From: Gammaproteobacteria bacterium
Lineage (GTDB): Bacteria; Pseudomonadota; Gammaproteobacteria; Steroidobacterales; GCA-2729495
Direction of reading: 5' to 3'
DNA length: 42,766 bases
Assembly: GCA_029245525.1 (NCBI GenBank)
Contig: JAQWPD010000057.1
Coordinates: forward strand, 1 to 42,766
The translations under genes were made by a program, and so were the position numbers. Below, in pieces: positions 8,638 through 32,714 of this stretch. The notes below the pieces were generated by a model that worked only from the letters and a program-made list of their open reading frames with translations, was not told where the DNA came from and did no database searches. The first letter of the stretch is position 1; the number at the start of each line of letters is the position of its first letter.

Positions 8638-9552
8638 ATGACAGCGGCCACATCAATCAACCTATGGACTCATACAGAGACAAATGAGCCTCGCGGCTAT
8701 ATAGATTCCGGAAGCTTGAAGGAACTGTGGTTTCATACCGGCACCGCTTGCAATCTAGCCTGCCCATTTTGTCTTGAAGGTTCCAAGCCCGGTGACAACC
8801 GGCTGCAACGGATCACGCTCAATGATGCCAGACCATTTATCGATGAAGCAGTTGAACTCGGCGTTGAAAAATTTTCGTTTACCGGAGGCGAACCTTTCAT
8901 CGTTAAAGACTTCGTCAATATACTGCACTATGCAGCGAACCGTCGTCCCTGCCTTGTATTGACCAATGGTACACAACCGGTATTGAAACGCCTGCAGCAA
9001 ATTGCCATGCTTAAAAACTGCTCTTACCCAGTGAGCTTTCGCATAAGTATTGATTACCCGAATGAGATGCAGCATGACGCTGGCCGCGGCGCGGGCTCTT
9101 ATAGAGAGGCACTACAATGCATTAGAGAGTTACGGGCAATCGGCTTCGACGTGTCAGTGGCAAGACAAATGTCAGCGGACGAAGACAGCGCACTGGCCGA
9201 AACCGCCTACCGGCAGCTGCTGACGAATGAGCATATTGATCTCGATACAAGAATCGTCAGCTTTCCCGATTTCGGCATCCCCGATTCCGCGCTCAAGGTT
9301 CCCGACGTAACTGAAAATTGCATGACGACATACCAAACGGCCACAACACGGAACCAGTTCATGTGTTCATTCAGCAAAATGGTAGTCAAGAAAAACGGGG
9401 GAATGCGCGTATATGCATGCACGCTAGTAGATGATGACCAGCGGTATGATCAGGGGGACACCCTTAATGAAGCATCAGAGAAGCGCGCGATGCTCACCCA
9501 TCATCGCTGCTACAGCTGCTTTAAGTTCGGATCTTCCTGCAGCGAAGGCTAA
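8638..9552 (+). CDS. Radical SAM protein with C-terminal auxiliary cluster motif
   Basis: A 304-residue enzyme. The radical SAM cluster motif is ACNLACPFC (C38, C42, C45) and the SAM-binding GGEP is at 83-86. The C-terminus has further cysteines at about 228, 243, 261, 291, 294 and 301 in a SPASM/twitch-like arrangement (MCSFSKM, VYACTLVDDD, HRCYSCFKFGSSC), so a second Fe-S cluster is likely. It does not show the N-terminus or motifs I associate with ArsS, which adds the 5'-deoxyadenosyl group to methylated arsenic, nor the RCCLLKC motif of ArsL. It forms an operon with the fused glycosyltransferase. Its reaction is unknown. An arsenic substrate is inferred from context only. Its stop overlaps the convergent TonB-like gene by 4 bases. 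Confidence 0.88.
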   Translation: MTAATSINLWTHTETNEPRGYIDSGSLKELWFHTGTACNLACPFCLEGSKPGDNRLQRITLNDARPFIDEAVELGVEKFSFTGGEPFIVKDFVNILHYAANRRPCLVLTNGTQPVLKRLQQIAMLKNCSYPVSFRISIDYPNEMQHDAGRGAGSYREALQCIRELRAIGFDVSVARQMSADEDSALAETAYRQLLTNEHIDLDTRIVSFPDFGIPDSALKVPDVTENCMTTYQTATTRNQFMCSFSKMVVKKNGGMRVYACTLVDDDQRYDQGDTLNEASEKRAMLTHHRCYSCFKFGSSCSEG

Positions 9553-10499
9553 GTTGGGAAGAAATCAATCGGCTTGGTCGTGGTTAGACGCGCAACATCT
9601 TTATCATCAAAGCGGAACATCTTAATACGCTGCACTAACTTACGCTCAAGCTCTGCATCGTTCAGTTCGCTGGATACGATCTCCACCATGGAAACTTCGC
9701 CGCTAGGCTCAATCGTCATGCGCAACACGACCTTGCCTTGCAGCCCTGGGTCCTTACGCAGCGAACGGGTATACAACGCATAGATAGCGCCTTTATTCTG
9801 ATCAAACACCATCTCGATTTCTTCACGGCTTCGCGATGGAACCGATCCACCACCATCACCGCCCGACCCTACCGAACTGCCAAAGCCTTCGATAGGGCTA
9901 CCCACCTGAGTCGTATCACGGCCGCCAATTCCCGAACCCCCGGTATTGCGACTCATCGCTGCCGTACTAATGCCGCCACTGCTCTTGCCCACCGAAGATG
10001 AAATCATCGAGCGCTCACTTCGCTTGGCTTCACCAGCAACACCGGTAAGGGGCTGATCTTTCACAACCGCAGAAACCGCATTATTACTCCGCAGATCCGC
10101 AAGGTCTGCTGAAAACGCCATTAAGCCGGCTCGCGATGCTTTTTTGCGCGCATCAGCCTTAGTCTGTTTTGGCGGAACTGGCTTTGGTGTCTCTTGTGGC
10201 GTTTCTGTCACGGTCTCGGCAGGCTTGGGTGCCTCGGATTCTATCGGGACATCAACAGGCTTAGGCGGTGGCTCAACCTTCTTCTCAATGAGCAAGCGGG
10301 CAAAGCGTTCGGGGATTTCTTCCTGTTTGTCGATATCCACATCAGGTAGCGGCAGCCAGGGGACAATTATAGCAAACAGCAATGCAGCGATAATGGTTCG
10401 CTGCCAAACCTTAGCAAAGGTCTTTTCTTGCTCGGCCGCCACTTCCCATGGCAACGAATAGGATCGGTAATGCATAAATAGAGCATCCTGCCGACTCAT
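9549..10499 (-). CDS. TonB-like energy transducer, AgmX/PglI C-terminal domain
   Basis: A 316-residue inner-membrane protein. It has a short cytosolic N-terminus, one membrane segment at about 34-51, a Pro/Lys/Glu-rich periplasmic stretch at about 58-120, a Gly/Ser-rich linker at about 150-225 and a TonB-fold end (YTRSLRKDPGLQGKVVLRMTIEPSGEVSMVEIV). That final domain is the AgmX/PglI type, first named in Myxococcus adventurous motility. The start ATG overlaps the stop of the upstream ExbD gene (ATGA). A second ATG 24 bases further in is possible. It is the last gene of the ExbB-ExbD-ExbD-TonB-like set and should transmit proton-motive energy to a partner at the outer membrane. Confidence 0.88.
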   Translation of the reverse strand: MSRQDALFMHYRSYSLPWEVAAEQEKTFAKVWQRTIIAALLFAIIVPWLPLPDVDIDKQEEIPERFARLLIEKKVEPPPKPVDVPIESEAPKPAETVTETPQETPKPVPPKQTKADARKKASRAGLMAFSADLADLRSNNAVSAVVKDQPLTGVAGEAKRSERSMISSSVGKSSGGISTAAMSRNTGGSGIGGRDTTQVGSPIEGFGSSVGSGGDGGGSVPSRSREEIEMVFDQNKGAIYALYTRSLRKDPGLQGKVVLRMTIEPSGEVSMVEIVSSELNDAELERKLVQRIKMFRFDDKDVARLTTTKPIDFFPT

Positions 10500-11020
10500 T
10501 GCGCTGCTCCAAGGGTGGCTGCATCGGCAGGGCCCTTCTGCACAATCGCCAGGGATACCCGGCCGTAATCAGCCGCCGTACAACTCGCCATGACTCGCTT
10601 TAAGAGCTGATAGGGCAAACCTTTATCACCCATAATAGTAACTTCACGGCTTTCGATTTCCGCGCTTTCATCGTCCTTAACCAGCAGCTTTTCGGTCTGG
10701 CGTCGCAACTCATTTTCGACTTCCGGAATAACTACACCTGGCTGAGCCATCACATCGGCGGTGTCGGCAACACGGCGGCCCTGCACTAATATGTAATCCG
10801 CATTAACCATGATCACAACGCTTTCACGGGCTTTCGCTTCCGCGACAGATTCAGGCAGCTGAATATCCTTAGCGTTTGGCAATACCTCAACGTCCGAAGA
10901 GTTCACCAACAGGAAAAACACCAGGATCGTAAAGATATCCATCAACGAGATCAGGTTCAGGCCCGGGCTTTTCGCCTTGTTTAACCGTTTCTCCATCCGC
11001 TTTGCGCGTCGTGACATCAT
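10496..11020 (-). CDS. ExbD/TolR-family proton channel subunit (Asp-containing)
   Basis: A 174-residue protein with one N-terminal membrane segment. LNLISLMDIFTILVFFLLV carries D28, the conserved proton-carrying Asp of ExbD/TolR. The rest is periplasmic. An insertion rich in charged residues (KLLVKDDESAEIESREV, about 110-128) and the ending TCTAADYGRVSLAIVQKG-type fold are consistent with the ExbD periplasmic domain. It lies 17 bp after a second, Asp-lacking ExbD gene and overlaps the TonB-like gene by 4 bases. With ExbB it should form the energising channel. Confidence 0.93.
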   Translation of the reverse strand: MMSRRAKRMEKRLNKAKSPGLNLISLMDIFTILVFFLLVNSSDVEVLPNAKDIQLPESVAEAKARESVVIMVNADYILVQGRRVADTADVMAQPGVVIPEVENELRRQTEKLLVKDDESAEIESREVTIMGDKGLPYQLLKRVMASCTAADYGRVSLAIVQKGPADAATLGAAQ

Positions 11021-11037
11021 CGTGAAACTATCCTCAC

Positions 11038-11538
11038 TTAATTCCCGGCCAAAACCGGTGCATCGCCAATGGAGACTTCAGGAAATAACTCGCCATAAAT
11101 AACGTCACCCGCGACAACTTCGGGGTACGACCGGGTCGCATCAATAATCTGCACCAATACGTCATACTCAACATCAGGCTCCAGCAGCAGAGCAGCATCG
11201 AGTCGATCAGGGTAGGTGATCTTTACGCGTTTTAGGTAATTGGTTAAGCCGGCATAATCATACTCATTATTAAGCTTAGGCAGCACTGTTAACGAGCCAC
11301 CATTGCGGTCACCGACCTCGATAGAATCTGCGCGTACAATTACTTCCAGAGCAAATTCAGGCGGTTCAGCCGACGCCTCGGATTGCGCCAAGGGCAAATC
11401 CAATTCGACAATCGCAAGTCTTGAAAACACCGCGGTAATTAACAGAAACGGAACCAAAATCACCATCAAATTCATGAAGGTGGTGATATTCAGCTCTTCA
11501 GCTTCCTTATTACGACGCGCTGACCGACGATGGCTCAT
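11038..11538 (-). CDS. ExbD/TolR-family protein lacking the conserved Asp
   Basis: A 166-residue ExbD-like protein. The single membrane segment reads ITTFMNLMVILVPFLLITAVF. The position of the essential Asp is Asn23, so this subunit should not carry protons itself. The periplasmic domain is otherwise intact (FALEVIVRADSIEV, YDVLVQIIDATRSYPEV). It overlaps ExbB by 4 bases (ATGA) and precedes the Asp-containing ExbD. The two probably form a heteromeric pair around ExbB, with this one structural or regulatory. Confidence 0.9.
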   Translation of the reverse strand: MSHRRSARRNKEAEELNITTFMNLMVILVPFLLITAVFSRLAIVELDLPLAQSEASAEPPEFALEVIVRADSIEVGDRNGGSLTVLPKLNNEYDYAGLTNYLKRVKITYPDRLDAALLLEPDVEYDVLVQIIDATRSYPEVVAGDVIYGELFPEVSIGDAPVLAGN

Positions 11539-12182
11539 GAATCGCCATCAGCCCGGCGTTCACCCACCGTGTTCAAGAATTTCACGGACGCCATTTCCAG
11601 GCTATCAATAATTTCAGTTGTCTTGGTCTGCAAAACCGCATGCATCAGCAGCAATGGAATCGCTACAATCAAGCCAAACGCGGTTGTATTCATAGCAACC
11701 GAAATACTGGCAGACAGAAGATCAGCTTTCTCCGCAGGGTTGGCGCCAGAAACGGCAGTAAAAGCGCGAATCAATCCAATAATAGTTCCAAGCAATCCAA
11801 GCAATGTAGCGATATTGGCAAAGGTCGCAAGATAGTGAGTACGCTTTTCCAACTGCGGCATCACCTCCATCAAGCTTTCTTCCATCGACCTCTCGATATC
11901 ATCCCGCCGACGTGCCGTTTTAATCCGGTTCAGTCCGTAAGTTAGAATCGTACCCAATGCCGACTTCGACGCACTGGTTATTGATTCGGCTTCAACGTAC
12001 TCGCCATCCTTAATGAAAGGGGTTACTTCCTTCCACAAAGCGTTACTTCTGGTCTGAGTCGTTGAGAGGTACATATACCGCTCAACGGCTATTGCCAGTC
12101 CTGCAGCCAAAACCAGAATAACCGGGTACATAAAGAACCCGCCGTTCTGGAAAAAGCCGACGATGCTGCTGTAAATTTCCAT
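11535..12182 (-). CDS. MotA/TolQ/ExbB-family proton channel protein
   Basis: A 215-residue inner-membrane protein with the three-helix ExbB layout. The first helix is near 15-35 (GGFFMYPVILVLAAGLAIAV), followed by a long cytosolic loop with RRRDDIERSMEE. The second and third helices are about 125-148 (TLLGLLGTIIGLIRAF) and 160-185 (AMNTTAFGLIVAIPLLLMHAV). The conserved small residues and Thr of helices 2 and 3 are present. A strong ribosome site (AAGGAGG) precedes the ATG by about 10 bases. It works with the two ExbDs and the TonB-like protein encoded next to it. Confidence 0.95.
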   Translation of the reverse strand: MEIYSSIVGFFQNGGFFMYPVILVLAAGLAIAVERYMYLSTTQTRSNALWKEVTPFIKDGEYVEAESITSASKSALGTILTYGLNRIKTARRRDDIERSMEESLMEVMPQLEKRTHYLATFANIATLLGLLGTIIGLIRAFTAVSGANPAEKADLLSASISVAMNTTAFGLIVAIPLLLMHAVLQTKTTEIIDSLEMASVKFLNTVGERRADGDS

Positions 12183-12211
12183 GGCCCTAAAGCCTCCTTT
12201 CCGAAAAAATC

Positions 12212-12553
12212 TTAATTTGTTGCGCCATCCGTTACCGGAGATGTGGACAATTGCCCATAATAGTCCACATGTCTAAGAAACACGTCACGGTCTACCGGTG
12301 CGAGCACTTGATCAAGCAGACTGTTCATCGCGCGGCCATCTAAATTACCGGGTCCGGCACTTTGCCAAGGCACTATATAAAGGACCTTCGGGAGCTCTGC
12401 ATTGCCCGTAATAACGGTAGACCCGAGCTCAAGCTTATCAACCTTGCGGCTCTCTGCTCTCGCTTCAGCGGTGTCTGAACGCGCAGTCTCCTGTGCCTGC
12501 GCGAGCGACAACAGGCCACACAACACACAAGCTAATAATCGATGCATCATCAT
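12212..12553 (-). CDS. Small conserved periplasmic protein of the ExbBD cluster
   Basis: A 113-residue protein with a Sec signal peptide (cleavage predicted after AQA near residue 20) and a short mature domain (LPKVLYIVPWQSAGPGN, SLLDQVLAPVDRDVFLRHVDYYG). I do not recognise a characterised family. It ends in TDGATN, which contains DGAT and is loosely like ApbE flavin-attachment sites (S/T-GAT), though the usual preceding residue differs. Three consecutive ATGs open the gene, and the first overlaps the TPR lipoprotein stop. It is translationally coupled to that gene and precedes exbB. Confidence 0.75.
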   Translation of the reverse strand: MMMHRLLACVLCGLLSLAQAQETARSDTAEARAESRKVDKLELGSTVITGNAELPKVLYIVPWQSAGPGNLDGRAMNSLLDQVLAPVDRDVFLRHVDYYGQLSTSPVTDGATN

Positions 12554-13167
12554 TGTTTAAGCCCTCCTGCATCACCTCTGGCCGTGCGGCGCCGCAGATC
12601 CGCTATCCAGCGATCCAGCGCTACTGTATCCGCATCTGCCGGTAACCTATCGCGATACTGCTGATAATAAACCAGCGCGACCTCAGGTTGTTGCAAATAT
12701 AAATCGTTCAAGACACCCAGATTCAGGTACGCCAAGGCATATTCTGGATTAGCAGCAATAGCGTCACGATACGCGGTATCAGCCGATTCAAATTGACCCT
12801 GCTCACGGTAAATAATACCCAGCTGATTGTAGGCTGGAGCATAACCAGGCTCAACGAGCACGGCGGTCTCCAGTGTCGCTACGGCAGCATCCGCCTGATC
12901 ACTGCGTAACTGCAATTTTGCCAGATTCAGGTAGGCCGCTGAGTAACCGGGATACTCAATAATAAACGCCTCGAATGCAGTAATAGCCCGACCATCCTCA
13001 CCGTTGCGCATTTTTTCCAACGCCTGCTGATAGCTTTGCAGCACCGCTGATGGAACATCCGGGCGGGCATTCCCTGCCTTAGAAGTGTCTCGCTGCATCA
13101 TACTGCAGCCACTAATTGTGGTCAGCGCGAGCGCTATACATGCACTGTTAATCAGTAAGCGAAGCAT
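12550..13167 (-). CDS. TPR-repeat lipoprotein
   Basis: A 205-residue protein with a lipobox ending at Cys21 (TTISGC), so it should be anchored to an envelope membrane. The mature part contains about four tetratricopeptide repeats, for example AAYLNLAKLQLRSDQADAAV, APAYNQLGIIYREQGQFESA and ALAYLNLGVLNDLYLQQPEVA. It is probably a protein-interaction scaffold. Its start lies 20 bp inside the end of the large TPR gene, and its stop overlaps the next gene by 4 bases. Confidence 0.9.
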   Translation of the reverse strand: MLRLLINSACIALALTTISGCSMMQRDTSKAGNARPDVPSAVLQSYQQALEKMRNGEDGRAITAFEAFIIEYPGYSAAYLNLAKLQLRSDQADAAVATLETAVLVEPGYAPAYNQLGIIYREQGQFESADTAYRDAIAANPEYALAYLNLGVLNDLYLQQPEVALVYYQQYRDRLPADADTVALDRWIADLRRRTARGDAGGLKQ

Positions 13168-15964
13168 AGCTTTCGGTCCTTTCTGATCTTGAGTAACGGC
13201 CCGGCATCAACTCGGCCAAGCGAGCATAGCTGTCTTTAACCGCCTGGTCATATACACCGTTAGCAGCGCGCTGCACATTTGCCTCATAAATCTCGATCGC
13301 TTTTTCTTCGAAAGGAAATGCCTGTTCTTCGAGCAAAATATCGTACTGTTCCAGTTCATCATTATTCAGCTCCGGCGGTTTCTCCGAGCTCATCAGATCC
13401 TTACTCAACTGATAATAGATTTCTGCCACCTGATAAGTGGCGACCGTCGTGACCTCAGCAACGCCATATTCTGCAGCAGCGTTATACGCATCAAGCGCCT
13501 CTTCCATGCGGGCTTTTTTGACTTTCATGCTCGCCTGCAGGGGCGCATTGAGTTTTATCGCCTCAAAACGGACAAAGTAGGGTTCAGCCAATTCAAGTGA
13601 ACCCTTTGCCGCAAGATACCGACTGCGGTCGCTGCGCTGACTGCCCGCCGCCGCATCTTCCGCAATGATTTCTCTCAAAACCTCATCACGCGCCGCCCCA
13701 TCCTTTAACTGCAATTCAATATTCGATAGCCGAAAACGTGCCTCCAATGATTCGCTCATTGGTTCAGGAAACTCATTCACAAACTGGCGGTAGGTGCGCT
13801 TGGCAGCAGAAAGCTGGTCATTATTCTGGTACAGCTCCGCTGCCTGCCACAGTGATTCGCGACGCGTGTCAGCACTCAAGTCGCCATTTGCCGACAAGCC
13901 CTCGAATTCTGCTGCCGCAGCCAACAACATACCTGCCTGCAAGTAGGAATAAGCCATTTTCTGTGACACTTCATTGCTAAGCGGATGCTCCGGGTACTGG
14001 GCACGAAACTGCTGCAATATCAAAATCGATTCAGGCCACCGTTCTCCGTTAATCAATAAGGTCGCTGCATCAAACACTGCGACAGGCTTAATGTCGGAGC
14101 TGTCTGCAATCCGCAGATAATCAGCCACCGCCAAATCAACATCACCCGCCAGCTGCGCAGCCTCTGCCTGACGGAAAATTGAAGCGGCAATTCGCTCCTG
14201 CACCTCAAGACGCTCTTCGTCAGAAATATCGTAGCTCGCCAACTTCAAATAGGCCTGCTCGGCATACTCGTATGCGCCCTGATCAAAGCGCGCCAATGCG
14301 ACGACTCGCCACGACACTATCTGAAAATCATTGCTTGCCTTGGGCTTCCGGCTCAACAGCTCGCGGGCAACAATACTCGCTGCAGTAAATCGACCACGGT
14401 CAAACAGCTGCTCTGATACAGCCACAAGCAACGCACTCGACTCGGGATTATCTGGATACTTATTGGCAAAATAAAGATCGTCCATGATCTGCTGTTCATC
14501 CCAAGCCGCCTGATCTGCTACCGGCAAGGTATCGCGATACATGCGGGCTGCGAGGATTGAGGCAAAACCGGCTTCAGCGGCCTGCGGGAAACCCGGATAG
14601 TCATACGCTGCAGCCTGGTACGCAGCAATCGCCGCTTTCGGCTGAGCAGATTCAGTGAGTACCTCGCCAAGCAGGAAGATGCGCTTAGCCACCTCTGGGT
14701 CATCAGGAAAAGCATCAATGTAAGTGCGGTACCACAATGCTGCTGCCACATAAGCCTCTGCATCATTATTCTGCTGAGCTCTGGAATGTTGGTACTGTGC
14801 GAGATCACTAAGGTTTATTTTTAGCTCGGCAATAACCTCAGGCCGATCTTCCGGCTGCCAGTAACCCCAGTAGTCTGCAGCAAGCCCATAGGTGCCAACA
14901 TAGGCCATCTTGCTCTCAAGCACCAAACTGGGGAAACCTGCGGTGCGATAGGCGGCGATAGCCAGACTCTGAAATACCGGTGCTTCATAGTGCGTAGGGT
15001 AATCGATCGCAAACGCCTCATAGACCCCCGCCGCATCAATATAACGCTCTTTTTCCAGATACAACTCTGCTAGCCCCTGATACAAAAAATACGCGTATCC
15101 AGAACTATTGTGTGATGCCACATAACTGCGGATCGAATCCGGACCATCTTCATATGAAAATGCAATACTCATTACGCGCAGAGTGTCTTCAAACAATTCA
15201 CGATCAGCGCGAGATAGATTCTCAATAACGGCTGATGACTCTGCTTCAGAGTAACCGCCAAGCTGCTCATCCATGAGCGTCAGGAACGATTCAATGCCTT
15301 CAGGGTAGAAACCCTGTTTAAAGCAACTCCACCCATGCTTATACAACGATTGCTCATAAAAACGGGAAGCATCACCCTGCGCTATTACAACGGCGTAAGC
15401 GGCCTCAGCACCAATATAATTTTTTTGGATGAATAGAATCTCACCACGCCGAAATTGGGCTTCTGCAATAAACTGACTGTTTGGCCAGCGACGAACAAAT
15501 TCATTTAGCGTAGTCAGTACGTTGTCCTGCTCACCCACATTTTCATAGGCTTTGGACAGCTGATACAGCGCCGCCTCCATGCCATCATAATCAGGATACT
15601 GGACACGAATATCATTGTAGATACGAATAGCGGCTAACTGGTCGGCGTCGTTGTAGAGCGTTCCACCCGAATCAACGCTGCGCTCCTCAGCGATTTCCAT
15701 ATAAAGGTCAGCCTGACGCCGCATAGCCTCTGCGCGCAATACAGCGTCGGCAGTGCCCTCAGCCAAATAACCTGCGTAAGCATTCAGTTTCCGGGAACTG
15801 GAAACCGGGTCCGGCTCAGCTATACGCACTTCAGGCGCTCGGCCGGATAAACTTTTTAGTGTCGCCGGATCTTTTTTACCGGGCCAAGCCGGTGCTGCGC
15901 TTGTTGCTAACATCAGGACGATCAGCAGTGTCGAAGATGCAGAAATACGATAATGCAAACTCAC
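13148..15964 (-). CDS. Large periplasmic TPR protein (938 aa)
   Basis: A 938-residue protein with a signal peptide at about 1-28 (cleavage near APAWP). It is almost entirely helical repeats of the TPR/Sel1-like type, with many AxxxY...P..SxFxxEAQFRRGEILF-like units. Such proteins act as extended scaffolds. The start is GTG, overlapping the upstream TPR gene's stop (GTGA). In this cluster three TPR proteins of different sizes precede the ExbB/ExbD genes, suggesting a periplasmic assembly linking inner-membrane energy to outer-membrane partners. Tyr, Ala and acidic residues are abundant. Confidence 0.9.
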   Translation of the reverse strand: MSLHYRISASSTLLIVLMLATSAAPAWPGKKDPATLKSLSGRAPEVRIAEPDPVSSSRKLNAYAGYLAEGTADAVLRAEAMRRQADLYMEIAEERSVDSGGTLYNDADQLAAIRIYNDIRVQYPDYDGMEAALYQLSKAYENVGEQDNVLTTLNEFVRRWPNSQFIAEAQFRRGEILFIQKNYIGAEAAYAVVIAQGDASRFYEQSLYKHGWSCFKQGFYPEGIESFLTLMDEQLGGYSEAESSAVIENLSRADRELFEDTLRVMSIAFSYEDGPDSIRSYVASHNSSGYAYFLYQGLAELYLEKERYIDAAGVYEAFAIDYPTHYEAPVFQSLAIAAYRTAGFPSLVLESKMAYVGTYGLAADYWGYWQPEDRPEVIAELKINLSDLAQYQHSRAQQNNDAEAYVAAALWYRTYIDAFPDDPEVAKRIFLLGEVLTESAQPKAAIAAYQAAAYDYPGFPQAAEAGFASILAARMYRDTLPVADQAAWDEQQIMDDLYFANKYPDNPESSALLVAVSEQLFDRGRFTAASIVARELLSRKPKASNDFQIVSWRVVALARFDQGAYEYAEQAYLKLASYDISDEERLEVQERIAASIFRQAEAAQLAGDVDLAVADYLRIADSSDIKPVAVFDAATLLINGERWPESILILQQFRAQYPEHPLSNEVSQKMAYSYLQAGMLLAAAAEFEGLSANGDLSADTRRESLWQAAELYQNNDQLSAAKRTYRQFVNEFPEPMSESLEARFRLSNIELQLKDGAARDEVLREIIAEDAAAGSQRSDRSRYLAAKGSLELAEPYFVRFEAIKLNAPLQASMKVKKARMEEALDAYNAAAEYGVAEVTTVATYQVAEIYYQLSKDLMSSEKPPELNNDELEQYDILLEEQAFPFEEKAIEIYEANVQRAANGVYDQAVKDSYARLAELMPGRYSRSERTESYASLTD

Positions 15965-17856
15965 TCTGCAAACTCCGCTGATGGACCAGCGCTATCAAAA
16001 ATTGCAGCCTGGGCAAATCGAGCCTGAGCACGATACTGCAATAGCCGCTCACGCTGCTCCACTAAATTTTCAGCGGCAACGTCGCTCAGCTCGCTTATCT
16101 GCAAGGCAGACACCACAGCAATATCATCGATCAACTGCTGAACCTGCGGTGCAAGCATGCGTGCACGCTCTGCGTAATCTTCTAACAAAAGAGGTGTTGC
16201 GGTTAACCGTTGAACAAATCGCGCATGGGTGCTCTCAGACTCTGCAATGAGCGCACCCAACTCTGCCTGCTGACCCTGCTGCTGCCATCGTCGAAGCTTA
16301 AATTCACGGTCTATATCCCATGACAACACGCCCTTAAAGAGCTCCAGCTTCTCCTGCGACTCGGTGCTGGCCGTGCTCCATTCGGAAGAGTTTTCTAATG
16401 CATCAATACGCTGCAATACCGACAACTCTTTCGCAGAAGCAAATACCACCGAGTCATCACTATTTTCTGCTGCTGAAATTGTCTCTGCAACACGCTCATA
16501 AGTGCTTCGATGAGCTGCCATCTCCTCGGCATAAAGCCCGTCAGGCAAACGCTCCAATGCGATCGAATAGGCTGCCATTCGCGAAGCTACGATGTCGCCA
16601 TAGATGTCCAGACGAGTCTGCCAATCACGCAAATGAGACGCCAGCATGACGAGATCACGATAGTTACGCAGCCCTGATTGAAACCGATTGCTGGCAATAA
16701 CCTCATACAAATATCGAACCTCGGTAGTATCAGGTAATGAGCTCAGACTCCAGCTGACACGACTAAAATCGGAAACATCTTCGGTAAGCAACTGCTTCAT
16801 GAGCTTGCCCTGACGAGCAACCACAATCGCCTGATCCAACCGACGAATCTCGTTGTCGTAAAGCTGAATCGCAGCCGTATAACTCTCAACCGCCTGCTGA
16901 TTCGCACCCAACTGCCGATAGGCATATGGAATAGCCAGCACTGATTCTTGGAATGCCGGATCAATTGCCTGACGATCACGCAATTCGAGCCATGGCACGA
17001 GTGCACCACGAAAATTACCCTCAGCAGCCTCCGCCCAACCGTAGCCTAACAATGCTGAACTCGAAAACGGGCCTGTTAAACGAATTCTTTCTAAAGCCAC
17101 CTTCGCCTGCGCACCGTCTTCCTGACGCAACCAAACAAAGCCCAGCGCAAGATTCGCGCGGTCACGCAATGCCCGCATTTCTTCACTGGACGCTTTTATG
17201 CTGCCTACAGCATCCAGATAGGCCGTTGCCTCATTGATGCGATCAGCCTGAACCAGAGCAACCCCGAGGTTATATCGGGCGTAATTTCCCCAATCATCAA
17301 CAGGCTCCCAGGCATCAACTATTTGTTCTGCCTTACCAAGCTCGCCCAATTCCATATAAGCCTGCGACAACAATGCATTGCGTTCGACGCTCTGGTGAGC
17401 CGGCAATTGATCTCCCGCGTACCGCAATACTTCTGCAGCCTCATCGATGTAACCACGCTGAAATAGTATTTTGCCCAAAAAAAACCAGGCCCTACCTCGA
17501 AGCTCTTGCTCAGCAGATACCCTCTCGCCATCCTCAACCAGAGTCGGCTCCATGTTATTCCCGAGCAGCAGTTCAAATATTTCTGCCGCATCGCTATGCA
17601 AACCATACGACAGTAGCAACCCGCCACGGAGCAATTCGGCTTCGGCAGCATGATCATCTATGCGGGAAAAATGCTCTTCAACAAGCAATGTTGTTAAAGC
17701 AGAGAAATAATCTTGTTTGTAAAACTCATACAACACCTGACCGTATGACAGGTTCTCTATAACGACACCAGAACGGGGTGTTACTTCCGCCGCACACAGC
17801 TGCCCACAGCCAATAAGAGCAGCTACCAGCGATAGTTTGCGAACCAATCTGCGCAC
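15961..17856 (-). CDS. Periplasmic TPR protein (631 aa)
   Basis: A 631-residue protein with an N-terminal signal peptide (LSLVAALIGCGQLCAAEV). The first 300 or so residues are tetratricopeptide-type helical repeats (AWFFLGKILFQRGYIDEAAEVLRYA, ARYNLGVALVQADRINEA). The C-terminal part (about 400-620) is helical and probably coiled coil, rich in Glu, Arg and Gln. The start is GTG, 6 bp after the upstream stop. Its function is unknown. Its position in a strictly overlapping operon with exbB/exbD indicates one complex. Confidence 0.88.
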   Translation of the reverse strand: MRRLVRKLSLVAALIGCGQLCAAEVTPRSGVVIENLSYGQVLYEFYKQDYFSALTTLLVEEHFSRIDDHAAEAELLRGGLLLSYGLHSDAAEIFELLLGNNMEPTLVEDGERVSAEQELRGRAWFFLGKILFQRGYIDEAAEVLRYAGDQLPAHQSVERNALLSQAYMELGELGKAEQIVDAWEPVDDWGNYARYNLGVALVQADRINEATAYLDAVGSIKASSEEMRALRDRANLALGFVWLRQEDGAQAKVALERIRLTGPFSSSALLGYGWAEAAEGNFRGALVPWLELRDRQAIDPAFQESVLAIPYAYRQLGANQQAVESYTAAIQLYDNEIRRLDQAIVVARQGKLMKQLLTEDVSDFSRVSWSLSSLPDTTEVRYLYEVIASNRFQSGLRNYRDLVMLASHLRDWQTRLDIYGDIVASRMAAYSIALERLPDGLYAEEMAAHRSTYERVAETISAAENSDDSVVFASAKELSVLQRIDALENSSEWSTASTESQEKLELFKGVLSWDIDREFKLRRWQQQGQQAELGALIAESESTHARFVQRLTATPLLLEDYAERARMLAPQVQQLIDDIAVVSALQISELSDVAAENLVEQRERLLQYRAQARFAQAAIFDSAGPSAEFAE

Positions 17857-17862
17857 CGGGCT

Positions 17863-20178: not shown

Positions 20179-20207
20179 GGCGATCAAGCAACAAATAGTA
20201 AATGAAC

Positions 20208-23895: not shown

Positions 23896-23923
23896 ACATC
23901 AACTCGCAGATAGGGCACTAAAA

Positions 23924-26605: not shown

Positions 26606-26797
26606 TCGCTCCTCAACAACACGCCCCATTAAACCATTAATCCAATCGTCGCCCTGCCTATCGCAGGCACATGGCGGGTAATTATGTAACGTAACCCGTT
26701 ACGGGTTACCAGTATGGTTAACTCCATCACAGAATACGAATCCGCTCGGCAGCACACTGGCGTTTCGCAAACCAAGTGTTTTCGCACGGACCTTCAG
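26606..26797. promoter_or_regulatory. Divergent control region with a 19-bp palindrome
   Basis: The region lies between the divergent HzsA-like and cytochrome-like genes. GTAACCCGT and ACGGGTTAC (26691-26709) are perfect 9-bp arms around one base, a strong operator candidate. A further GTAAC abuts it at 26686. A second inverted repeat, TGCCT-N5-AGGCA, lies at 26655-26669. The part from 26669 onward belongs to duplicated module A, but the palindrome is absent from copy B. Confidence 0.65.
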
Positions 26798-26941
26798 ATG
26801 AATAGACTGCATAGCAGGCAAATAATTCAGCCTGCAACCATTGCCTCAAGACAGAACTGTACCCGACTGGTAATATTTTTCATGTTATTGGGCGTTTTTT
26901 TTGCCTCCGCGGCCTACGCCGTCCCGCATGGTCCCCGTGAA
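26669..26941 (+). repeat. Duplicated upstream/leader/signal-peptide module, copy A
   Basis: Copy of 21997-22272 in the opposite orientation. It covers the sequence upstream of, and the first 48 codons of, the cytochrome-like gene. TTATGTAA occurs at the same distance from the shared 18-base block in both copies. The two 41-residue signal peptides have the same length, both end AAYA, and both are followed by xPHxxRE. Confidence 0.85.
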
Positions 26942-28042
26942 CAGGCTAAACGCATTCATGATCGCATTGCCGGTGTACCGCCAAGCGGCGCCGATCTTGC
27001 GTACATGGCCGATAAAATTAGTGATGGCTTTCCCTTGGAAGCCGCCCAACGGGCTATCGAAAACAGCAACTTCTATAACGTTACCCTAAAAACGCATGTT
27101 GCTCCGTGGACCAACCGCGATCAATCGCTGTTTGCGCCACTGAATGACTACATCGCCACTGTCATCGGAATGGTCTACAACGATGCCGACTTTCGAGACA
27201 TCCTAAGCCACAACGTTATCTATACCTACACAGGCACTAATCCGAACGTCCGGGACTATAACTCGAGCAACAACCAACATTACGAAGACATTGAGGCTGC
27301 TGGCATCAATATCGGTGACGCACTGAAAAGCAATGAATTCAATGGAAGCACCCAACAAAGTAAAGTCGGTATCCCCGCTGAAGCTGCCGCGGGGGTGATG
27401 ACAACTCGGGCAGCTGCAGAAGCCTTCTTCACCGCCGGCACCAATCGTGCAATGTTCCGCTTTACACTCCTTAATCACATGTGCGTTGACCTTGAACAGG
27501 TTCAGGATGCCACACGGATACCCGACCGTATTCGACAGGATGTATCACGCAGTCCCGGCGGTGACAGCAGAATATTTATGAACAACTGCATCAGCTGTCA
27601 TAGTGGGATGGATGGGCTGGCCGGAGCCTTTGCTTACTACAATTTCAATGAAGGCAGCCGACAACTTGAATACACGGTCGATAATGTTCAAGAGAAGTAC
27701 CAAATTAATAGTGATAACTTCTCTTTTGGCTACGTTACCGTGGATGACAGCTGGAAGAATTACTGGCGCGCCGGCCCGAACCAATGGCTGGGCTGGGAAG
27801 CTGGTATGCCCGCTGAAGGTGTTGGTGCCGCTAGCCTCGGTCGTGAAATAGCGCACAGCCAAGCCTTTGCGCAATGCCATGTACAGCAGGTGTTCAAAAC
27901 CGTATGCCTGCGAGAACCTTCCGATACAGACGATCTCAGTCAAGTTAGCGCCATGATCGGTCAGTTCAATCAGAATCATGATCTGAAAGAGCAATTCAAA
28001 CTGGCTGCTGTGCATTGTATGGGTGATGAGGACATCACCTGA
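26798..28042 (+). CDS. DUF1592/DUF1588-like mono-heme exported protein
   Basis: A 414-residue exported protein. The signal peptide (41 residues, ending AAYA) is shared with tlpA-1. One c-type heme site CISCH lies at about 264-268, in the segment NNCISCHSGMDGLAGAFAYYNF that resembles the heme-bearing part of planctomycete-type DUF1588/DUF1592 proteins. The sequence is otherwise a mixed helical domain. I use the ATG at 26798 because it aligns with the tlpA-1 start. The frame is open to an ATG at 26714. The next gene starts on its stop (TGATG). It is probably a periplasmic cytochrome-like partner of the LamG and Tat proteins. Confidence 0.75.
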   Translation: MNRLHSRQIIQPATIASRQNCTRLVIFFMLLGVFFASAAYAVPHGPREQAKRIHDRIAGVPPSGADLAYMADKISDGFPLEAAQRAIENSNFYNVTLKTHVAPWTNRDQSLFAPLNDYIATVIGMVYNDADFRDILSHNVIYTYTGTNPNVRDYNSSNNQHYEDIEAAGINIGDALKSNEFNGSTQQSKVGIPAEAAAGVMTTRAAAEAFFTAGTNRAMFRFTLLNHMCVDLEQVQDATRIPDRIRQDVSRSPGGDSRIFMNNCISCHSGMDGLAGAFAYYNFNEGSRQLEYTVDNVQEKYQINSDNFSFGYVTVDDSWKNYWRAGPNQWLGWEAGMPAEGVGAASLGREIAHSQAFAQCHVQQVFKTVCLREPSDTDDLSQVSAMIGQFNQNHDLKEQFKLAAVHCMGDEDIT

Positions 28043-30624
28043 TGACTTATAACAGCCGACTAATGATGCTTAAACCGCTGTCGCTCTTACTCAGCATTTT
28101 GGCACTTTCCGCCTGCGGCGGTGGTGCAGAGACCCAAACTAACCCACCGGCATCGGTTGCACCGGTTGTGCAGTCCTATGCAGGCCCGGCGTCGCAGACT
28201 GACGACATTCAGGCTTTTAGACTCAATGTTTGGGAAAACCTTCGCACTGATGAGCGCTGCAGTCGCTGCCATGTGAGCGATCAGCAAGCACCTTTTTTTA
28301 TGCGCAATGACAATATCAATCTTGCCTATGCCGCTGCACTCCCGTTAATCAACCGAGAACGTCCCTTTGAATCAAGACTGGTCACCAAGGTCGGCGTTGG
28401 TCATAACTGCTGGCTAGAAAGCAATGTCGCTTGCGCTGATGTCATGCTGCGCTGGATTGAAAGCTGGTTGGGCGAGGGAAGCGACACTATTGGCCGGCAA
28501 ATTCAGATTATCCCTCTGTCTGAAGATCAACTTCGTGAGCGCACGCCTAAAATTCAGTTCCCCGAGAGCGCCACCGAGTATGCAGCAAGCAAACTTTATC
28601 TCGATGCACAGCAATGGTGTGCGGACTGCCACAGCAGTGATTCTGACAACCCAAGAAAGCCCTACTTCGCCGACACCCAGTCGGCGGAAGAAGCCTACGC
28701 GGAAGTTATTGCAAAAATCAATCTCGATAGCCCCCACCAAAGCCGTCTTGTAGAGCGCCCTAGAGACGAAGGCCATGGCTGTGCATTACAAAATTGTGCG
28801 ACTTATGCCAGCACACTTGAGCAGGACATCGCCATCTTTTCGGCCGGCCTAGGTGCTCCGGCATTTGATCCGGACCTGGTTGCCAGCAAGGCGGTTGTTG
28901 TTGCCGAGGATGGCATTGTCGCCGCCGGTGGCAGCCGTTATGAGAACGACCTGATTGCCCTGTATGAATTCAAAAGCGGCGAGGGCTTTACTGCCGCAGA
29001 CACCAGTGGTGTAGATCCGGCAGCTAATCTGAACCTGAGCGATAGCTCAATGTGGTTGAGCAACTGGGGCCTCGAATTTGATGGCGGGAAGGCACAAGCA
29101 ACCGTAGACGATAGCCGTAAACTTGTTGAACTGATTAAGGCAACCGGCGAATACACGATCGAGGCATGGCTGGTTCCTGCCAACGTAACTCAGGAAGACG
29201 CCTATATCATTAGCTATTCCGGCAGCACCAGCCAACGAAATGTCACCCTCGGCCAGACACTGTACAACTACGATTTCTTTAATCGCAGCAGTGCGACCGA
29301 TGAAAATGGCGAAGAGGCCCTATCAACAGCTGATGCTGATGAAGATCTGCAGGCAGCATTGCAACATGTCGTAATGACATACAGCCCTGTCAGCGGCCGC
29401 CGGCTTTACGTCGGAGGTGTTTATACCGACGATGCCGATCCAATGCCCGCGGGCGGATTGGAAAACTGGTCAGAGACATTCGCGCTTGTTCTTGGCAACG
29501 AAGTGTCAGGCAATCGCCCCTGGCGCGGACAGATTAGGATGTTGGCTATCCACAATCGCGCACTTACCGATGAACAAATCACGCGAAATGCCACGATTAT
29601 ACCGGGGCAAAAATACTTCCTGATTTTCAATATCGATACTTGGACCGGCTTAAATCACAGCTATATTCTAATCGAAGCAAATCAGTACGATGCATACAGC
29701 TACCTGTTTGCTGAACCACGGTTTATTTTGCTGGGCGACAGTCAGACTCCGGGCAGTATCCCGATTCGTGGCATGCGTATAGGCATTAATGGAATCGTCC
29801 CTCGCAGCGGACAGGTGTTTGCCAATATTAATGTGCTAACCAGCGATGCAGGCTACCCGCCCGAGGGGTTGCCCTTGTCACGATTGGGCACGCTTGTGGA
29901 ACTCGGCTCAGGCATTGATGTTGACGAATTCTTCTTAACGTTTGACCAACTCGGTAATGGGTTTAATACGTACACCGATCTTGGCTCATTGACTCCGCCC
30001 CTAATGCCAAACATACCGGCATCTTCTGAAACCGGATTCCGCTTGTTTGATGAAATCTATGCCTCCATGGGCGAACTTACCGGCATTCGTTCCAGCACCT
30101 CCGGCGCCTACTCTGAGGTCCGCGAAACCTATCTTGCCGTCCGTCAACAACTGCCCGCAACAACTGATGCAAACGGTTTTCTGGGCGCACACCAGGCAGG
30201 TGTCGCACAGCTTGCCATTGAGTACTGCAACGCCCTAGTGAATGACACCACTTTACGCAATACCTTCTGGCCGGCATTTAATTTTCCAGAGGCTAGCAGC
30301 GGCACCTTAAATATCAATACCTGGCTTGGAACAGCCGAACAGCGGGCTGCGGTGATCGACCCGCTGGTAGACAAGTTTTTAGGTGTCAACCTCTACTCGC
30401 AGCCGCTCACTGGCAATGTCAATAGCCCGGCGCCGAAAGATATTCCAGATAACGATAATAATGCGGCCACCATCAAGCCGGACATGACCATCAAGGGAGA
30501 ACTAAATTCGCTGGTCACTGATTTATCTGCCTGCGGTAGCAACTGTGCCACAAACCGCGTCGCAACTATTATTAAAGCAGCCTGCTCTGCTGCGCTTGGT
30601 AACGCCGGCGTCATGATGCAGTAG
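28042..30624 (+). CDS. LamG-domain di-heme lipoprotein
   Basis: An 860-residue lipoprotein (LSAC, Cys25). Two c-type heme motifs follow: CSRCH at 73-77 and CADCH at 193-197, each in a repeated unit with a distal Cys. A LamG/concanavalin-like domain spans about 325-540 (LIALYEFKSGEGFTAADTSG, TIEAWLVPANVTQEDAYIISYSG, WRGQIRMLAIHNRALTDEQI) and suggests carbohydrate or protein binding. The C-terminal 300 residues are not recognised and include a paired-Cys tail (LSACGSNC). It overlaps the previous gene by one base. The mix of heme sites and LamG resembles planctomycete surface cytochromes. Confidence 0.88.
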   Translation: MTYNSRLMMLKPLSLLLSILALSACGGGAETQTNPPASVAPVVQSYAGPASQTDDIQAFRLNVWENLRTDERCSRCHVSDQQAPFFMRNDNINLAYAAALPLINRERPFESRLVTKVGVGHNCWLESNVACADVMLRWIESWLGEGSDTIGRQIQIIPLSEDQLRERTPKIQFPESATEYAASKLYLDAQQWCADCHSSDSDNPRKPYFADTQSAEEAYAEVIAKINLDSPHQSRLVERPRDEGHGCALQNCATYASTLEQDIAIFSAGLGAPAFDPDLVASKAVVVAEDGIVAAGGSRYENDLIALYEFKSGEGFTAADTSGVDPAANLNLSDSSMWLSNWGLEFDGGKAQATVDDSRKLVELIKATGEYTIEAWLVPANVTQEDAYIISYSGSTSQRNVTLGQTLYNYDFFNRSSATDENGEEALSTADADEDLQAALQHVVMTYSPVSGRRLYVGGVYTDDADPMPAGGLENWSETFALVLGNEVSGNRPWRGQIRMLAIHNRALTDEQITRNATIIPGQKYFLIFNIDTWTGLNHSYILIEANQYDAYSYLFAEPRFILLGDSQTPGSIPIRGMRIGINGIVPRSGQVFANINVLTSDAGYPPEGLPLSRLGTLVELGSGIDVDEFFLTFDQLGNGFNTYTDLGSLTPPLMPNIPASSETGFRLFDEIYASMGELTGIRSSTSGAYSEVRETYLAVRQQLPATTDANGFLGAHQAGVAQLAIEYCNALVNDTTLRNTFWPAFNFPEASSGTLNINTWLGTAEQRAAVIDPLVDKFLGVNLYSQPLTGNVNSPAPKDIPDNDNNAATIKPDMTIKGELNSLVTDLSACGSNCATNRVATIIKAACSAALGNAGVMMQ

Positions 30625-30639
30625 CCAGAAGGAAAGAAA

Positions 30640-32280
30640 ATGACGAAGAAATCATTCACCATTGATGAACCGCTAAGACACCCGGATCACTCGCGCCCCC
30701 GAACCCGGCGTGAATTTATATCTCAGGGCTTTATAACCGGTTCGGCCACACTGGCTGGTGCCAACCTACTCAGCATCATGAGTCATACCAATACTGCGTT
30801 CGCAGACCTTGCTGGTGATATTCAAGCGCTGCGTGCACCCAGCATTTGTGATATTCAAAATACTGGTGCTGGGAAAATCCCCTTCATCTGCTTTGACCTT
30901 TCTGGCGGCGCCAATATTTCAGGTTCAAATGTGCTCGTTGGCGGCGCTGGTGGGCAGGAAGATTTTTTATCCACTGCTGGTTACAGCAAACTTGGTTTGC
31001 CTGGCGACCGGATTCCAGGCGCTATTGATCCGAATGGCGGAGATTTTGTTAACCGCGAACTGGGCTTAGCCTTTCACTCACAAAGTGCCATGCTGCGCGG
31101 CATCTTCGACAAGTGCCCGATCGGTCCCCGCGCCAGCATTAATGGCGCCGTTATTCCAGCAAGATCCGACAATGACACCGCCAACAATCCGCATAACCCG
31201 ATGTACGCTATTGCACAAAACGGAAACTATTCCTACGGCTCACTACTAAACCTGATTGGCTCGAGAAACAGTATTTCCGGCGGTAACTCAATGGCCGGAG
31301 GGTTCACTCTTGAGCCTACTTTTATTGATCCGGCAATGAGACCCACTAAAATTGACCGCCCATCCGACGTAACCGACTTGGTCAATACCGGCAAACTGGT
31401 CGGCCTGCTCAGCAAAGATGATGCCGTGCGGGTCATGGAATCTATTCAGCGCATCAGTGATATGAAACTCACCGCAACTGATACCAAGGTTGCCCATGAT
31501 GCAGAGCTAAAGCGTAGTATTCGCTGCGCCTATGTTCAGTCCGCGCATCTAACTGACCGATACGCCGATGACGATGCATCAGGCAATGGCGTTTCGCCAG
31601 TACTTGACGCGACACAGGATCCGGCAATCCGTGCGCTTTTTTCTGATGAAGAATTGTTAAACGATCGTGAATTTCGTAAAACCGCAGCGATCATGAAAAT
31701 GGTACTGAACGGACTGGCGTCGGCAGGGACGGTCACCATGGGCGGCTACGATTACCACACCGGCGATCGTGCTACCGGTGAGCAACGCGATTTCCGGGCG
31801 GGCCAATGCATGGGAGCATGTCTTGCCTATGCCGATGCCGTTGGCGTACCGCTAATGATGTATGTGTTCAGTGATGGCTCTGTTGCTAGCAATGGCCTAC
31901 CCGATAATTCGGTTCTGGGTGATGGCAAAGGGCAGTGGACCGGCGATAACTCATCAACCGCTGCGAGCTTCTTTTTAGTCTACAATCCCGGGCAGGCACC
32001 GCAGTTACGCAGCGGCGGAATCTATGGGCTAAGCACAGATCAACATCAACAACTTGGCCACATGCGGCGTGAGGCATCGGTAGAAACATCCAGCCCCTAC
32101 CCAGCCGCCAATAGCGTCGACCGCTTGGTGGAAACTGTAGTGCTGAATTACATGGCACTGCACGACGATGTCGGTGGGTTTGCAGGATTAAACCATGGGC
32201 TCGGCAGCAGCACTGACACCCTAGACCGGCAAATCGCTTTTCAGCCCATAGTCAACGGTCAGATAATCCCGCCTGGTTAA
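30640..32280 (+). CDS. Tat-exported DUF1501-like protein
   Basis: A 546-residue protein with a twin-arginine signal (TRREFISQGF, R23-R24) and cleavage near AFA (about residue 54). It should be exported folded. The body (ICFDLSGGANISGSNVLVGG, MGGYDYHTGDRATGEQRDFRAGQ, MMYVFSDGSVASN) resembles the DUF1501 alkaline-phosphatase-superfamily-like proteins that accompany DUF1592-type cytochromes in planctomycetes. Most catalytic residues are not obvious to me. A good ribosome site (AGAAGGA) precedes the ATG, 15 bp after the LamG gene. Folded export points to a cofactor. Confidence 0.85.
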   Translation: MTKKSFTIDEPLRHPDHSRPRTRREFISQGFITGSATLAGANLLSIMSHTNTAFADLAGDIQALRAPSICDIQNTGAGKIPFICFDLSGGANISGSNVLVGGAGGQEDFLSTAGYSKLGLPGDRIPGAIDPNGGDFVNRELGLAFHSQSAMLRGIFDKCPIGPRASINGAVIPARSDNDTANNPHNPMYAIAQNGNYSYGSLLNLIGSRNSISGGNSMAGGFTLEPTFIDPAMRPTKIDRPSDVTDLVNTGKLVGLLSKDDAVRVMESIQRISDMKLTATDTKVAHDAELKRSIRCAYVQSAHLTDRYADDDASGNGVSPVLDATQDPAIRALFSDEELLNDREFRKTAAIMKMVLNGLASAGTVTMGGYDYHTGDRATGEQRDFRAGQCMGACLAYADAVGVPLMMYVFSDGSVASNGLPDNSVLGDGKGQWTGDNSSTAASFFLVYNPGQAPQLRSGGIYGLSTDQHQQLGHMRREASVETSSPYPAANSVDRLVETVVLNYMALHDDVGGFAGLNHGLGSSTDTLDRQIAFQPIVNGQIIPPG

Positions 32281-32293
32281 ACTTTAGGCGGGA
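32267..32293 (+). other. Stem-loop overlapping the stop of the Tat gene
   Basis: TCCCGCCT and AGGCGGGA (32267-32274 and 32286-32293) are perfect 8-bp arms with an 11-base loop that contains the stop codon. No T run follows, so it is not a classical terminator. It could stabilise the upstream message or lower expression of the next gene. Confidence 0.5.
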
Positions 32294-32348
32294 CTATCAC
32301 AGCCCATATGAGGTAGCATACAAAGCGAAATCTATCAGAGGTATAACT

Positions 32349-32714
32349 ATGGAACATTTTATTGTCACTATGCTCGCCAAGCCAGGCGAGGAAGCGAAAG
32401 TTGCGAGCTACTATCAACGTATTAGCAAAGATATTGATGCTGCCGACGGTTTTCTTGGCCGCACAGTGATGTGTTCGGTGCCCGGTTCAATGGCAGAGGA
32501 TGTCAACAAGCGCATCACAGCAGAACAAAGGGCGGAGCATCCGCCGCATGATGATGAGCAATTAGCTCAGTTTATTATTCATGAAAAATGGGAATCTAAA
32601 GAAGCGCGCTGGGCATTCTCCAGCAATCTGAAGATTGATCGCAAGACTGAACTGTTTCCGTACATCCGCAGTGAGCATACCCATGAGTACTATGTCGATG
32701 CGTTAAACCAATAG
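32349..32714 (+). CDS. ABM-like dimeric alpha/beta-barrel protein
   Basis: A 121-residue small cytosolic protein. The fold pattern (HFIVTMLAKPGEEAKVASYYQRISKDIDAADGFLGRTVMCSV, FIIHEKWESKEARWAFSSNL) is that of the antibiotic-biosynthesis-monooxygenase/dimeric alpha-beta-barrel family. Many members do not have known oxygenase activity, and some degrade heme or quinones. An insertion rich in His and Glu (AEQRAEHPPHDDEQ) sits in the middle. A ribosome site (AGAGGT) precedes the ATG. It is last on the strand after the heme and Tat genes. Confidence 0.8.
   Translation: MEHFIVTMLAKPGEEAKVASYYQRISKDIDAADGFLGRTVMCSVPGSMAEDVNKRITAEQRAEHPPHDDEQLAQFIIHEKWESKEARWAFSSNLKIDRKTELFPYIRSEHTHEYYVDALNQ

Follow-up and report, generated by a model that had tools for sequence, protein, structure and literature searches.

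The analysed stretch of DNA (42,766 nucleotides, positions 1 to 42,766 of contig JAQWPD010000057.1 in the Gammaproteobacteria bacterium assembly GCA_029245525.1; referred to as the window) contains at positions 9549–32280 a gene cluster that, based on translation and Pfam/NCBIfam scans, encodes 20 exported or membrane proteins. The cluster joins a motor block of the Agl/Glt type to a block of thiol, flavin, and heme proteins. An earlier sequence-only reading of the window had listed about twenty neighboring exported or membrane genes, and the scans bore out the families it named save for two, which are corrected below. The genes are as follows:

9549..10499, minus strand: GltG-like TonB-family force transducer with one transmembrane helix and an AgmX/PglI C-terminal domain (NF033768, 68.7 bits, cut-off 40)
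10496..11020, minus strand: ExbD1, transmembrane aspartate kept (LMDIF; PF02472, 61 bits; Asp invariant in relatives)
11038..11538, minus strand: ExbD2, transmembrane aspartate replaced by Asn (TTFMNLM; PF02472, 46.4 bits)
11535..12182, minus strand: ExbB/AglR-like proton channel subunit (PF01618, 104.2 bits)
12212..12553, minus strand: small exported protein of 113 amino acids (sml113), member of the motor block (no Pfam match; in most loci)
12550..13167, minus strand: GltE-like TPR lipoprotein (TPR matches; lipobox)
13148..15964, minus strand: GltD-like exported TPR protein of 938 amino acids (TPR_6, 41.9 bits; position and size match the core complex of Luciano et al.)
15961..17856, minus strand: GltC-like exported TPR protein of 631 amino acids (TPR_19, 34.3 bits)
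17863..18423, minus strand: exported coiled-coil/beta protein, here called coil186 (no family)
18420..18926, minus strand: TlpA/ResA-like thioredoxin, CQSC (PF00578, 80.6 bits; ResA, 94 bits)
19183..20187, minus strand: exported ApbE flavin transferase (PF02424, 243.3 bits)
20208..21344, minus strand: divergent DUF3570 outer-membrane barrel with the predicted flavinylation site D-D-I-T-S-A-S at residues 68–74 (PF12094, 136.2 bits; motif alignment; barrel model)
21362..21586, minus strand: DUF4266 small lipoprotein with C-terminal CGC (PF14086, 83.8 bits; lipobox)
21589..22167, minus strand: TlpA-like thioredoxin, CGPC (PF00578, 88.1 bits)
22538..23185, minus strand: outer-membrane beta-barrel of the OMP_myx_plus family (TIGR04565, 148.8 bits, cut-off 60)
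23155..23895, minus strand: SH3 domain plus outer-membrane beta-barrel (PF08239, 37.6 bits; TIGR04565, 25.9 bits)
23924..26629, minus strand: HzsA-like PD40/HZS_alpha lipoprotein with two c-type heme motifs (CxxCH) (PF18582, 62.8 bits; match to 5c2v)
26714..28042, plus strand: exported monoheme protein (one CxxCH) of the PSD2/DUF1585 and PSCyt3/DUF1588 type (CxxCH invariant)
28042..30624, plus strand: LamG lipoprotein with two c-type heme motifs (CxxCH) (PF13385, 69.4 bits; motifs invariant)
30640..32280, plus strand: Tat-exported protein, probably of alkaline-phosphatase superfamily fold (RR motif; VIA-align on predicted model)

The genes at 9549–26629 are all located on the minus strand and mostly overlap or lie at most 30 bases apart, with three larger intergenic gaps of 256, about 0–244 (occupied by DUF4266), and 370 bases. 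The genes at 26714–32280 are divergent from this run and separated from it by 84 bases. Rfam and tRNA scans of the window yielded no matches. Both sml113 (12212–12553) and coil186 (17863–18423) belong to the set. An ABM-like gene at 32349–32714, which among the loci read recurs only in the close relative L105, lies outside the system.

Four markers (the DUF3570 family PF12094, the 938-amino-acid GltD-like TPR protein, the Tat protein, and the HzsA-like protein) were searched for in 274 genomes of the same class, with linkage defined as a distance within 30 kb. The PF12094 matches were divided into a strong, canonical group (≥155 bits) and a weak, divergent group resembling the window copy (<155 bits); the 155-bit line is our own cut, and one copy falls near it (154.4 bits, linked). 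Genomes with a weak DUF3570 also encoded the GltD-like TPR protein in 42 of 43 cases (Fisher p = 1.7e-32), the HzsA-like protein in 37 (p = 4.8e-37), and the Tat protein in 32 (p = 5.6e-29). Because related genomes are not independent, the comparison was repeated on the level of 169 families, where weak DUF3570 occurred with GltD in 28/29 (p = 6e-21), with the HzsA-like protein in 25/29 (p = 2e-23), and with the Tat protein in 24/29 families (p within 6e-21 to 2e-23). The TPR gene was found within 30 kb of 32, and the HzsA gene within 30 kb of 35, of the 47 weak DUF3570 copies; none of the 47 strong copies had a TPR, HzsA, or Tat marker at this distance. All four markers lay within 30 kb at 18 loci from 14 families, and the two halves were physically linked in 22 families. 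The motor half, represented by GltD, occurred alone in 21 of the 274 genomes. The dependence is one-sided: the flavin/heme half goes with the motor half, and the motor half also stands alone. When 299 genomes sampled from the phylum were searched with the HzsA profile, all seven carriers belonged to this class, and the motor block adjoined HzsA in four of the five carriers not met in the earlier sample. The proposal of the sequence-only reading that the genes form one system thus held, as the halves are not independent and usually lie side by side. The gene set is one co-inherited system.

Gene maps of loci from 31 other genomes showed the motor block in the order coil186, GltC, GltD, GltE, sml113, ExbB, ExbD2, ExbD1, and GltG wherever it was fully read. 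The redox block consists of HzsA, the SH3-barrel, the outer-membrane barrel, TlpA, DUF4266, and DUF3570, with ApbE nearby. The order and orientation of the two blocks vary while their adjacency is retained and the flanking genes differ among loci, indicating that the boundaries of the system are real. Each redox block contains one to three heme proteins and occurs in two variants. The first carries the divergent trio of cytochrome, LamG, and Tat proteins; in the second this trio is replaced by a lipoprotein of about 170 amino acids that contains a CX4CH motif and matches no Pfam family (e.g., L023:12674-13177), and HzsA has three CxxCH motifs instead of two. A search for a shared regulator in the HzsA/cytochrome intergenic regions found inverted repeats resembling CRP sites (TGWGA-N6-TCACA) in only 4 of 21 loci (G036, G080, G204, and G034).

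Protein-distance correlations were corrected for RpoB distance in up to 21 genomes; the p-values given are uncorrected for the 21 pairs tried. The distances of DUF3570 correlated with those of HzsA (0.61, p = 0.0005), coil186 (0.61, p = 0.002), and GltD (0.39, p = 0.0045), and further correlations were obtained for Tat and HzsA (0.55), the SH3-barrel and GltD (0.45), and the SH3-barrel and HzsA (0.41; all p < 0.005). Since their distances track both GltD and HzsA, DUF3570 and the SH3-barrel sit between the two halves. Co-inheritance, which the sequence-only reading proposed to check with trees, was recovered in these distances for DUF3570 and the SH3-barrel with both halves; it did not extend to HzsA or Tat paired with GltD. 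In the GltD tree the linked copies clustered, requiring 7 changes versus 14.9 in shuffled data, although this deep and poorly supported tree does not show a single origin.

In the motor block, ExbB, two ExbD proteins, the AgmX/PglI TonB-like protein, and three exported TPR proteins are clustered, which by protein family identifies it as a predicted member of the Agl-Glt core complex. This complex comprises the Group B genes aglR, aglQ, aglS, gltC, gltD, gltE, and gltG, and its function outside the myxobacteria is not known (Luciano et al., 2011, PMC3169522). The labels GltC-, GltD-, and GltE-like are provisional, TPR similarity alone being weak and the M. xanthus proteins lying outside the comparison. 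The ExbD lacking the aspartate (11038–11538), already pointed out in the sequence-only reading, is real: the Asn is present in every relative that could be read clearly except G017 (Asp), in system and solo loci alike, and thus marks the core complex of gammaproteobacteria in general. AglQ and AglS have both been described with the transmembrane Asp (PMC9389320), and the D28N exchange in AglQ abolishes proton conductance (PMC3858216); the ExbD1/ExbD2 pair would have one protonatable site. An AglQ/AglS-type pair with Asp in both ExbD subunits is thus not present in the window. The coil186 protein, in system loci mostly 45–60% identical to the window copy, adjoins GltC in solo loci too and probably corresponds to the “additional gene” described for this complex in gammaproteobacteria. 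A gliding machinery proper was rejected, as the GltG-like protein reached only 37 of 650 bits for the gliding_GltG equivalog and the GltJ equivalog scored 29 of 450 bits, and as none of the Group A genes (GltA, B, F, H, I, J, and K) was clearly present in the loci read; a role like that of GltA/B could fall to the OMP_myx_plus barrel. In genome G086, a 725-amino-acid cytochrome with 21 CxxCH motifs (L153:1-2176, minus strand), a near-miss to the triheme nanowire domain TIGR04257, adjoins a stand-alone motor block.

The redox block contains ApbE, DUF3570, DUF4266 with a C-terminal CXC, and a thioredoxin-like protein together, and by this gene content would belong to the described flavin module of ApbE, DUF3570, DUF4266, and thioredoxin, for which the authors did not settle what the flavinylation of DUF3570 serves and described flavin/cytochrome exchange in other pathways (Meheust, 2021, PMC8238504). 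DUF3570 of Chlorobium luteolum is flavinylated by ApbE at two SGAS-type sites (PMC8238504). The general motif is D-x-x-[ST]-G-A-[ST], in which a change of the Gly is tolerated at reduced yield; a Gly-to-Ala exchange in another protein retained about half of the flavinylation (review, PMC12052999). In an alignment of the divergent subfamily, site 1 reads D-x-x-[ST]-[SG]-A-[ST] in 25 of 30 sequences, and SGAS is kept in five of nine variant (ii) sequences; the window copy (DDITSAS) retains the Ser and has Ser in place of Gly. The lack of the strict motif raised the question of whether flavinylation has been lost; this was not concluded, since the Ser and Asp of site 1 are mostly kept and some relatives have SGAS. 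An AlphaFold2 model of DUF3570 is a barrel of about 16 strands (predicted local distance difference test score, pLDDT, 87), in which the site-1 loop (72–84) follows an odd strand and lies on the face of the barrel that also carries the long loops 190–218, 281–307, and 350–361. By the usual rule for barrels this loop would tentatively be assigned to the outer side (local pLDDT 60–70). Foldseek searches with the model retrieved outer-membrane barrels with no special partner; MtrB, from the Mtr complex, ranked 15th. The genome from which the window originates also encodes DsbD.

Five heme motifs are present in the heme half of the window. The HzsA-like protein shares with hydrazine synthase alpha (PDB 5c2v) a PD40 propeller and an HZS_alpha middle domain followed by CxxCH. 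In hydrazine synthase alpha, a Tyr four residues after the first CxxCH serves as heme ligand; no conserved Tyr was found at this position in 29 HzsA-like sequences, and HzsB/C were not recognized in the loci read. A hydrazine synthase function was therefore rejected. Low-similarity hzs-like genes have been suggested to form a wider enzyme family (PMC10732223). The exported monoheme protein (26714–28042), previously called DUF1592-like, instead matches DUF1585/PSD2 (11 of 17 family members) and DUF1588/PSCyt3 (6 of 17; best E-value 2.6e-6); PSCyt/PSD genes have no known function (PMC5615132). The name DUF1501-like for the Tat protein could not be upheld either: 17 family members had no Pfam match, and an assignment to DUF1501 or DUF1552 (HXXSHH) was rejected on hhalign probabilities of 2.5% and 0.9%. 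Its predicted structure, a low-confidence model with a pLDDT of only 61, aligned by VIA-align with Z 11.7 over 257 residues (root-mean-square deviation 4.8), and nearly all top chains belonged to the alkaline-phosphatase superfamily, the Foldseek E-values alone not being significant. The protein thus probably adopts this fold.

A further hint at electron transfer was obtained from genome G435, which contains HzsA, the motor block, and both barrels (L222, L223, and L230) and has no DUF3570 anywhere in the genome. A complete MtrABC/NapC conduit lies beside the barrels, where the genes encode NapC/NirT (214 bits), a diheme c protein, OmcA/MtrC (548.8 bits), DmsE/MtrA (302.5 bits), and MtrB/PioB (447.5 bits). 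MtrB exceeded its cut-off in 17 of the 274 genomes, 11 of which have a weak DUF3570 (p = 2.6e-6, phylogeny ignored), and in none of the 21 genomes that have only the motor block. It is absent from the genome of the window, and the window itself has no decaheme MtrA/MtrC conduit.

Taken together, the locus may plausibly, if not quite probably, encode one trans-envelope machine in which a proton-driven Agl/Glt-type motor and a redox chain at the cell surface are combined. For the redox half, electron transfer at the cell surface is the most fitting interpretation and has moderate support. As we infer the direction of electron flow, the substrate, and the action of the motor on the redox half, periplasmic thiols from DsbD would supply TlpA as well as the C-terminal CGC of DUF4266, from which electrons would pass to flavin mononucleotide (FMN) attached by ApbE to the outer-membrane DUF3570 and from FMN to the surface heme lipoproteins (HzsA-like and LamG). 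These lipoproteins might in turn give electrons to, or take them from, a substrate that is external or bound to a polymer and on which the Tat-exported protein would act. The motor, acting via GltG and the TPR scaffold, would pull on or move the barrels together with their lipoproteins, similar to the transport of surface cargo by Agl-Glt/Nfs in Myxococcus. That the proton-motive force mechanically drives outer-membrane electron transfer, by gating, moving, or mounting the flavinylated barrel and surface cytochromes so that surface electron exchange would be powered or switched from the inner membrane, is a bolder idea and rather unlikely. To our knowledge, no envelope motor has redox proteins as its working end.

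Several observations weigh against such a machine. The strict [ST]GA[ST] motif is absent from the DUF3570 of the window (DDITSAS, TQGS) and from most of its group, so that the modification is not assured, and no inner-membrane quinol oxidase is encoded in the locus. Variant (ii) loci lack the cytochrome/LamG/Tat trio, which therefore is dispensable. Beyond species distance the heme half shows no co-evolution with GltD (RpoB-corrected partial r 0.01 for HzsA and 0.13 for Tat, not significant). The replacement by Mtr genes is confined to one genome (G435), and no MtrB–GltD linkage was found in the 274-genome sample. In most of 20 control loci with GltD and no weak DUF3570 nearby, the motor block occurs without redox genes; L162, an exception, has ApbE and TlpA and resembles the second half of a system that is split in G167. 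In favor of a specific coupling, 20 canonical DUF3570 loci mostly hold only the four-gene cassette TlpA-DUF4266-DUF3570-ApbE. Since motor block and flavin cassette each exist alone, the divergent DUF3570 is their meeting point.

Alternatively, the motor and TPR scaffold could export or mount the heme and flavin lipoproteins, with the thioredoxins and ApbE maturing them by apocytochrome thiol reduction and flavin attachment and electron transfer by the cargo being secondary. The two TlpA/ResA-like thioredoxins beside CxxCH proteins, the several lipoproteins and TPR scaffolds, and a motor that consistently accompanies this cargo would suit such a biogenesis machine. Yet thioredoxins accompany DUF3570 and DUF4266 even in canonical cassettes free of cytochromes and are thus not explained by heme maturation, and other gammaproteobacteria export their surface lipoproteins with no motor of this kind. 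This explanation is unlikely. Import of the TonB type, in which ExbBD and GltG would energize DUF3570 or the SH3/OMP barrels for uptake of, for example, iron or a polymer fragment after its reduction or cleavage at the surface by the flavin, heme, and Tat proteins, is quite improbable. The TonB-type C-terminal domain of GltG and the barrels in the locus would fit, and some DUF3570 clusters have been linked to iron transport (VIT1; Meheust, 2021, PMC8238504), but DUF3570 has by sequence neither a plug domain nor a match to TonB-dependent receptors, the canonical protein functions without adjoining ExbBD, and standard TonB systems do not include three TPR proteins.

Also quite improbable is a transport or adhesion machine like that of Myxococcus, in which the core complex would move an adhesin or a polymer on the cell surface and the redox proteins would only sense or modify that polymer. 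The layout is the same as in Agl-Glt/Nfs (PMC3169522, PMC3858216), an OMP_myx_plus barrel is present, and the LamG domain and the alkaline-phosphatase-fold protein would suit a carbohydrate; however, Group A gliding genes are missing, no recurrent polymer synthesis genes were seen in the loci, and the thiol, flavin, and heme genes as well as the Mtr replacement would be left unexplained. A chance adjacency of two unrelated operons in this lineage, to which the solo motor blocks (21/274 genomes) and the uncorrelated HzsA and GltD distances might point, is hardly credible, as it is contradicted by the joint occurrence of GltD and divergent DUF3570 in 42/43 genomes, the linkage in 22 families, and an adjacency that is kept despite changes in order and was replicated in new genomes.

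The system was found in 80 named loci, for which all counts are lower bounds because the simple open reading frame caller missed genes in loci of high G + C content. The carriers comprise Woeseiaceae, Candidatus Thiodiazotropha, the endosymbionts of Lamellibrachia and Escarpia, Sedimenticola, Thiogranum, Steroidobacteraceae, Kangiellaceae, and the cultured isolate Pseudomaricurvus alcaniphilus; the closest record is a Chromatiales metagenome-assembled genome (SI072_bin130, 91% identity). An experimental host thus exists, and other carriers include Woeseiaceae of marine sediment and tubeworm endosymbionts. The assertion of the sequence-only reading that no function had been described for the set overlooked the Agl-Glt core complex (PMC3169522) and the DUF3570 module (PMC8238504) as described sub-blocks. 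In the literature searched, mostly outside subscription journals, DUF3570 or DUF4266 was named in a single paper and no publication joined ApbE or DUF4266 with Agl/Glt genes, and the union of core complex and flavin module with HzsA-like, PSD2-type, and LamG cytochromes and a Tat protein is new to the literature searched. Two open questions, the function of the core complex (since 2011) and the purpose of DUF3570 flavinylation (since 2021), thereby become one testable question, with a first lead on the role of the motor in these bacteria. With one Asp and one Asn, the asymmetric ExbD pair also lends itself naturally to testing the mechanism of 5:2 motors.

Beside the system, arsenosugar-type genes are located at 6067–9552, including an ArsM-like methyltransferase (164.5 bits, below the cut-off), a radical SAM protein, and a fusion of the TIGR04282 and TIGR04283 glycosyltransferases in one protein. 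The region 34052–40445 encodes a 1336-amino-acid protein with an AAA_35 domain, a proprotein-convertase P-domain, and a WD40 propeller, adjoined by a TonB-dependent receptor (38346–40445). In L105 the WD40, SYLF, and ABM-like genes are kept beside the system.

Compared to known systems, the locus shares with the Agl-Glt core complex of Gammaproteobacteria a single cluster that holds an ExbB, a pair of ExbD proteins, a TonB-like transducer of the AgmX/PglI type, and three TPR proteins; the complex has one extra conserved gene, which coil186 fits. The locus differs in coupling the motor to a flavin/heme block and extra barrels, in the Asn of ExbD2 where AglQ and AglS both have Asp, and in a GltG far below the equivalog cut-off for the gliding protein. 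All four genes of the flavin module of Meheust (2021) are present, with TlpA-DUF4266-DUF3570 in the same order and ApbE close by. In contrast to the canonical module, the DUF3570 subfamily is divergent (about 55–155 versus 155–450 bits) and tied to the motor block, the SGAS motifs are mostly SSAS or similar, and heme proteins are added. Unlike HzsA of hydrazine synthase, the HzsA-like protein is a lipoprotein with two or three hemes, without the Tyr and without HzsB/C. As in planctomycete-type PSCyt/PSD loci (PMC5615132), a PSD2/PSCyt3-type cytochrome adjoins a LamG cytochrome and a Tat-exported protein, but here in Gammaproteobacteria, with a motor, and with a Tat protein that by profile is not DUF1501/DUF1552. 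With MtrCAB/CymA the locus would share its proposed outcome, the passage of electrons across the outer membrane, and in G435 such a conduit occupies the same place; in the window, a flavin barrel and few-heme lipoproteins are found instead of a multiheme conduit.

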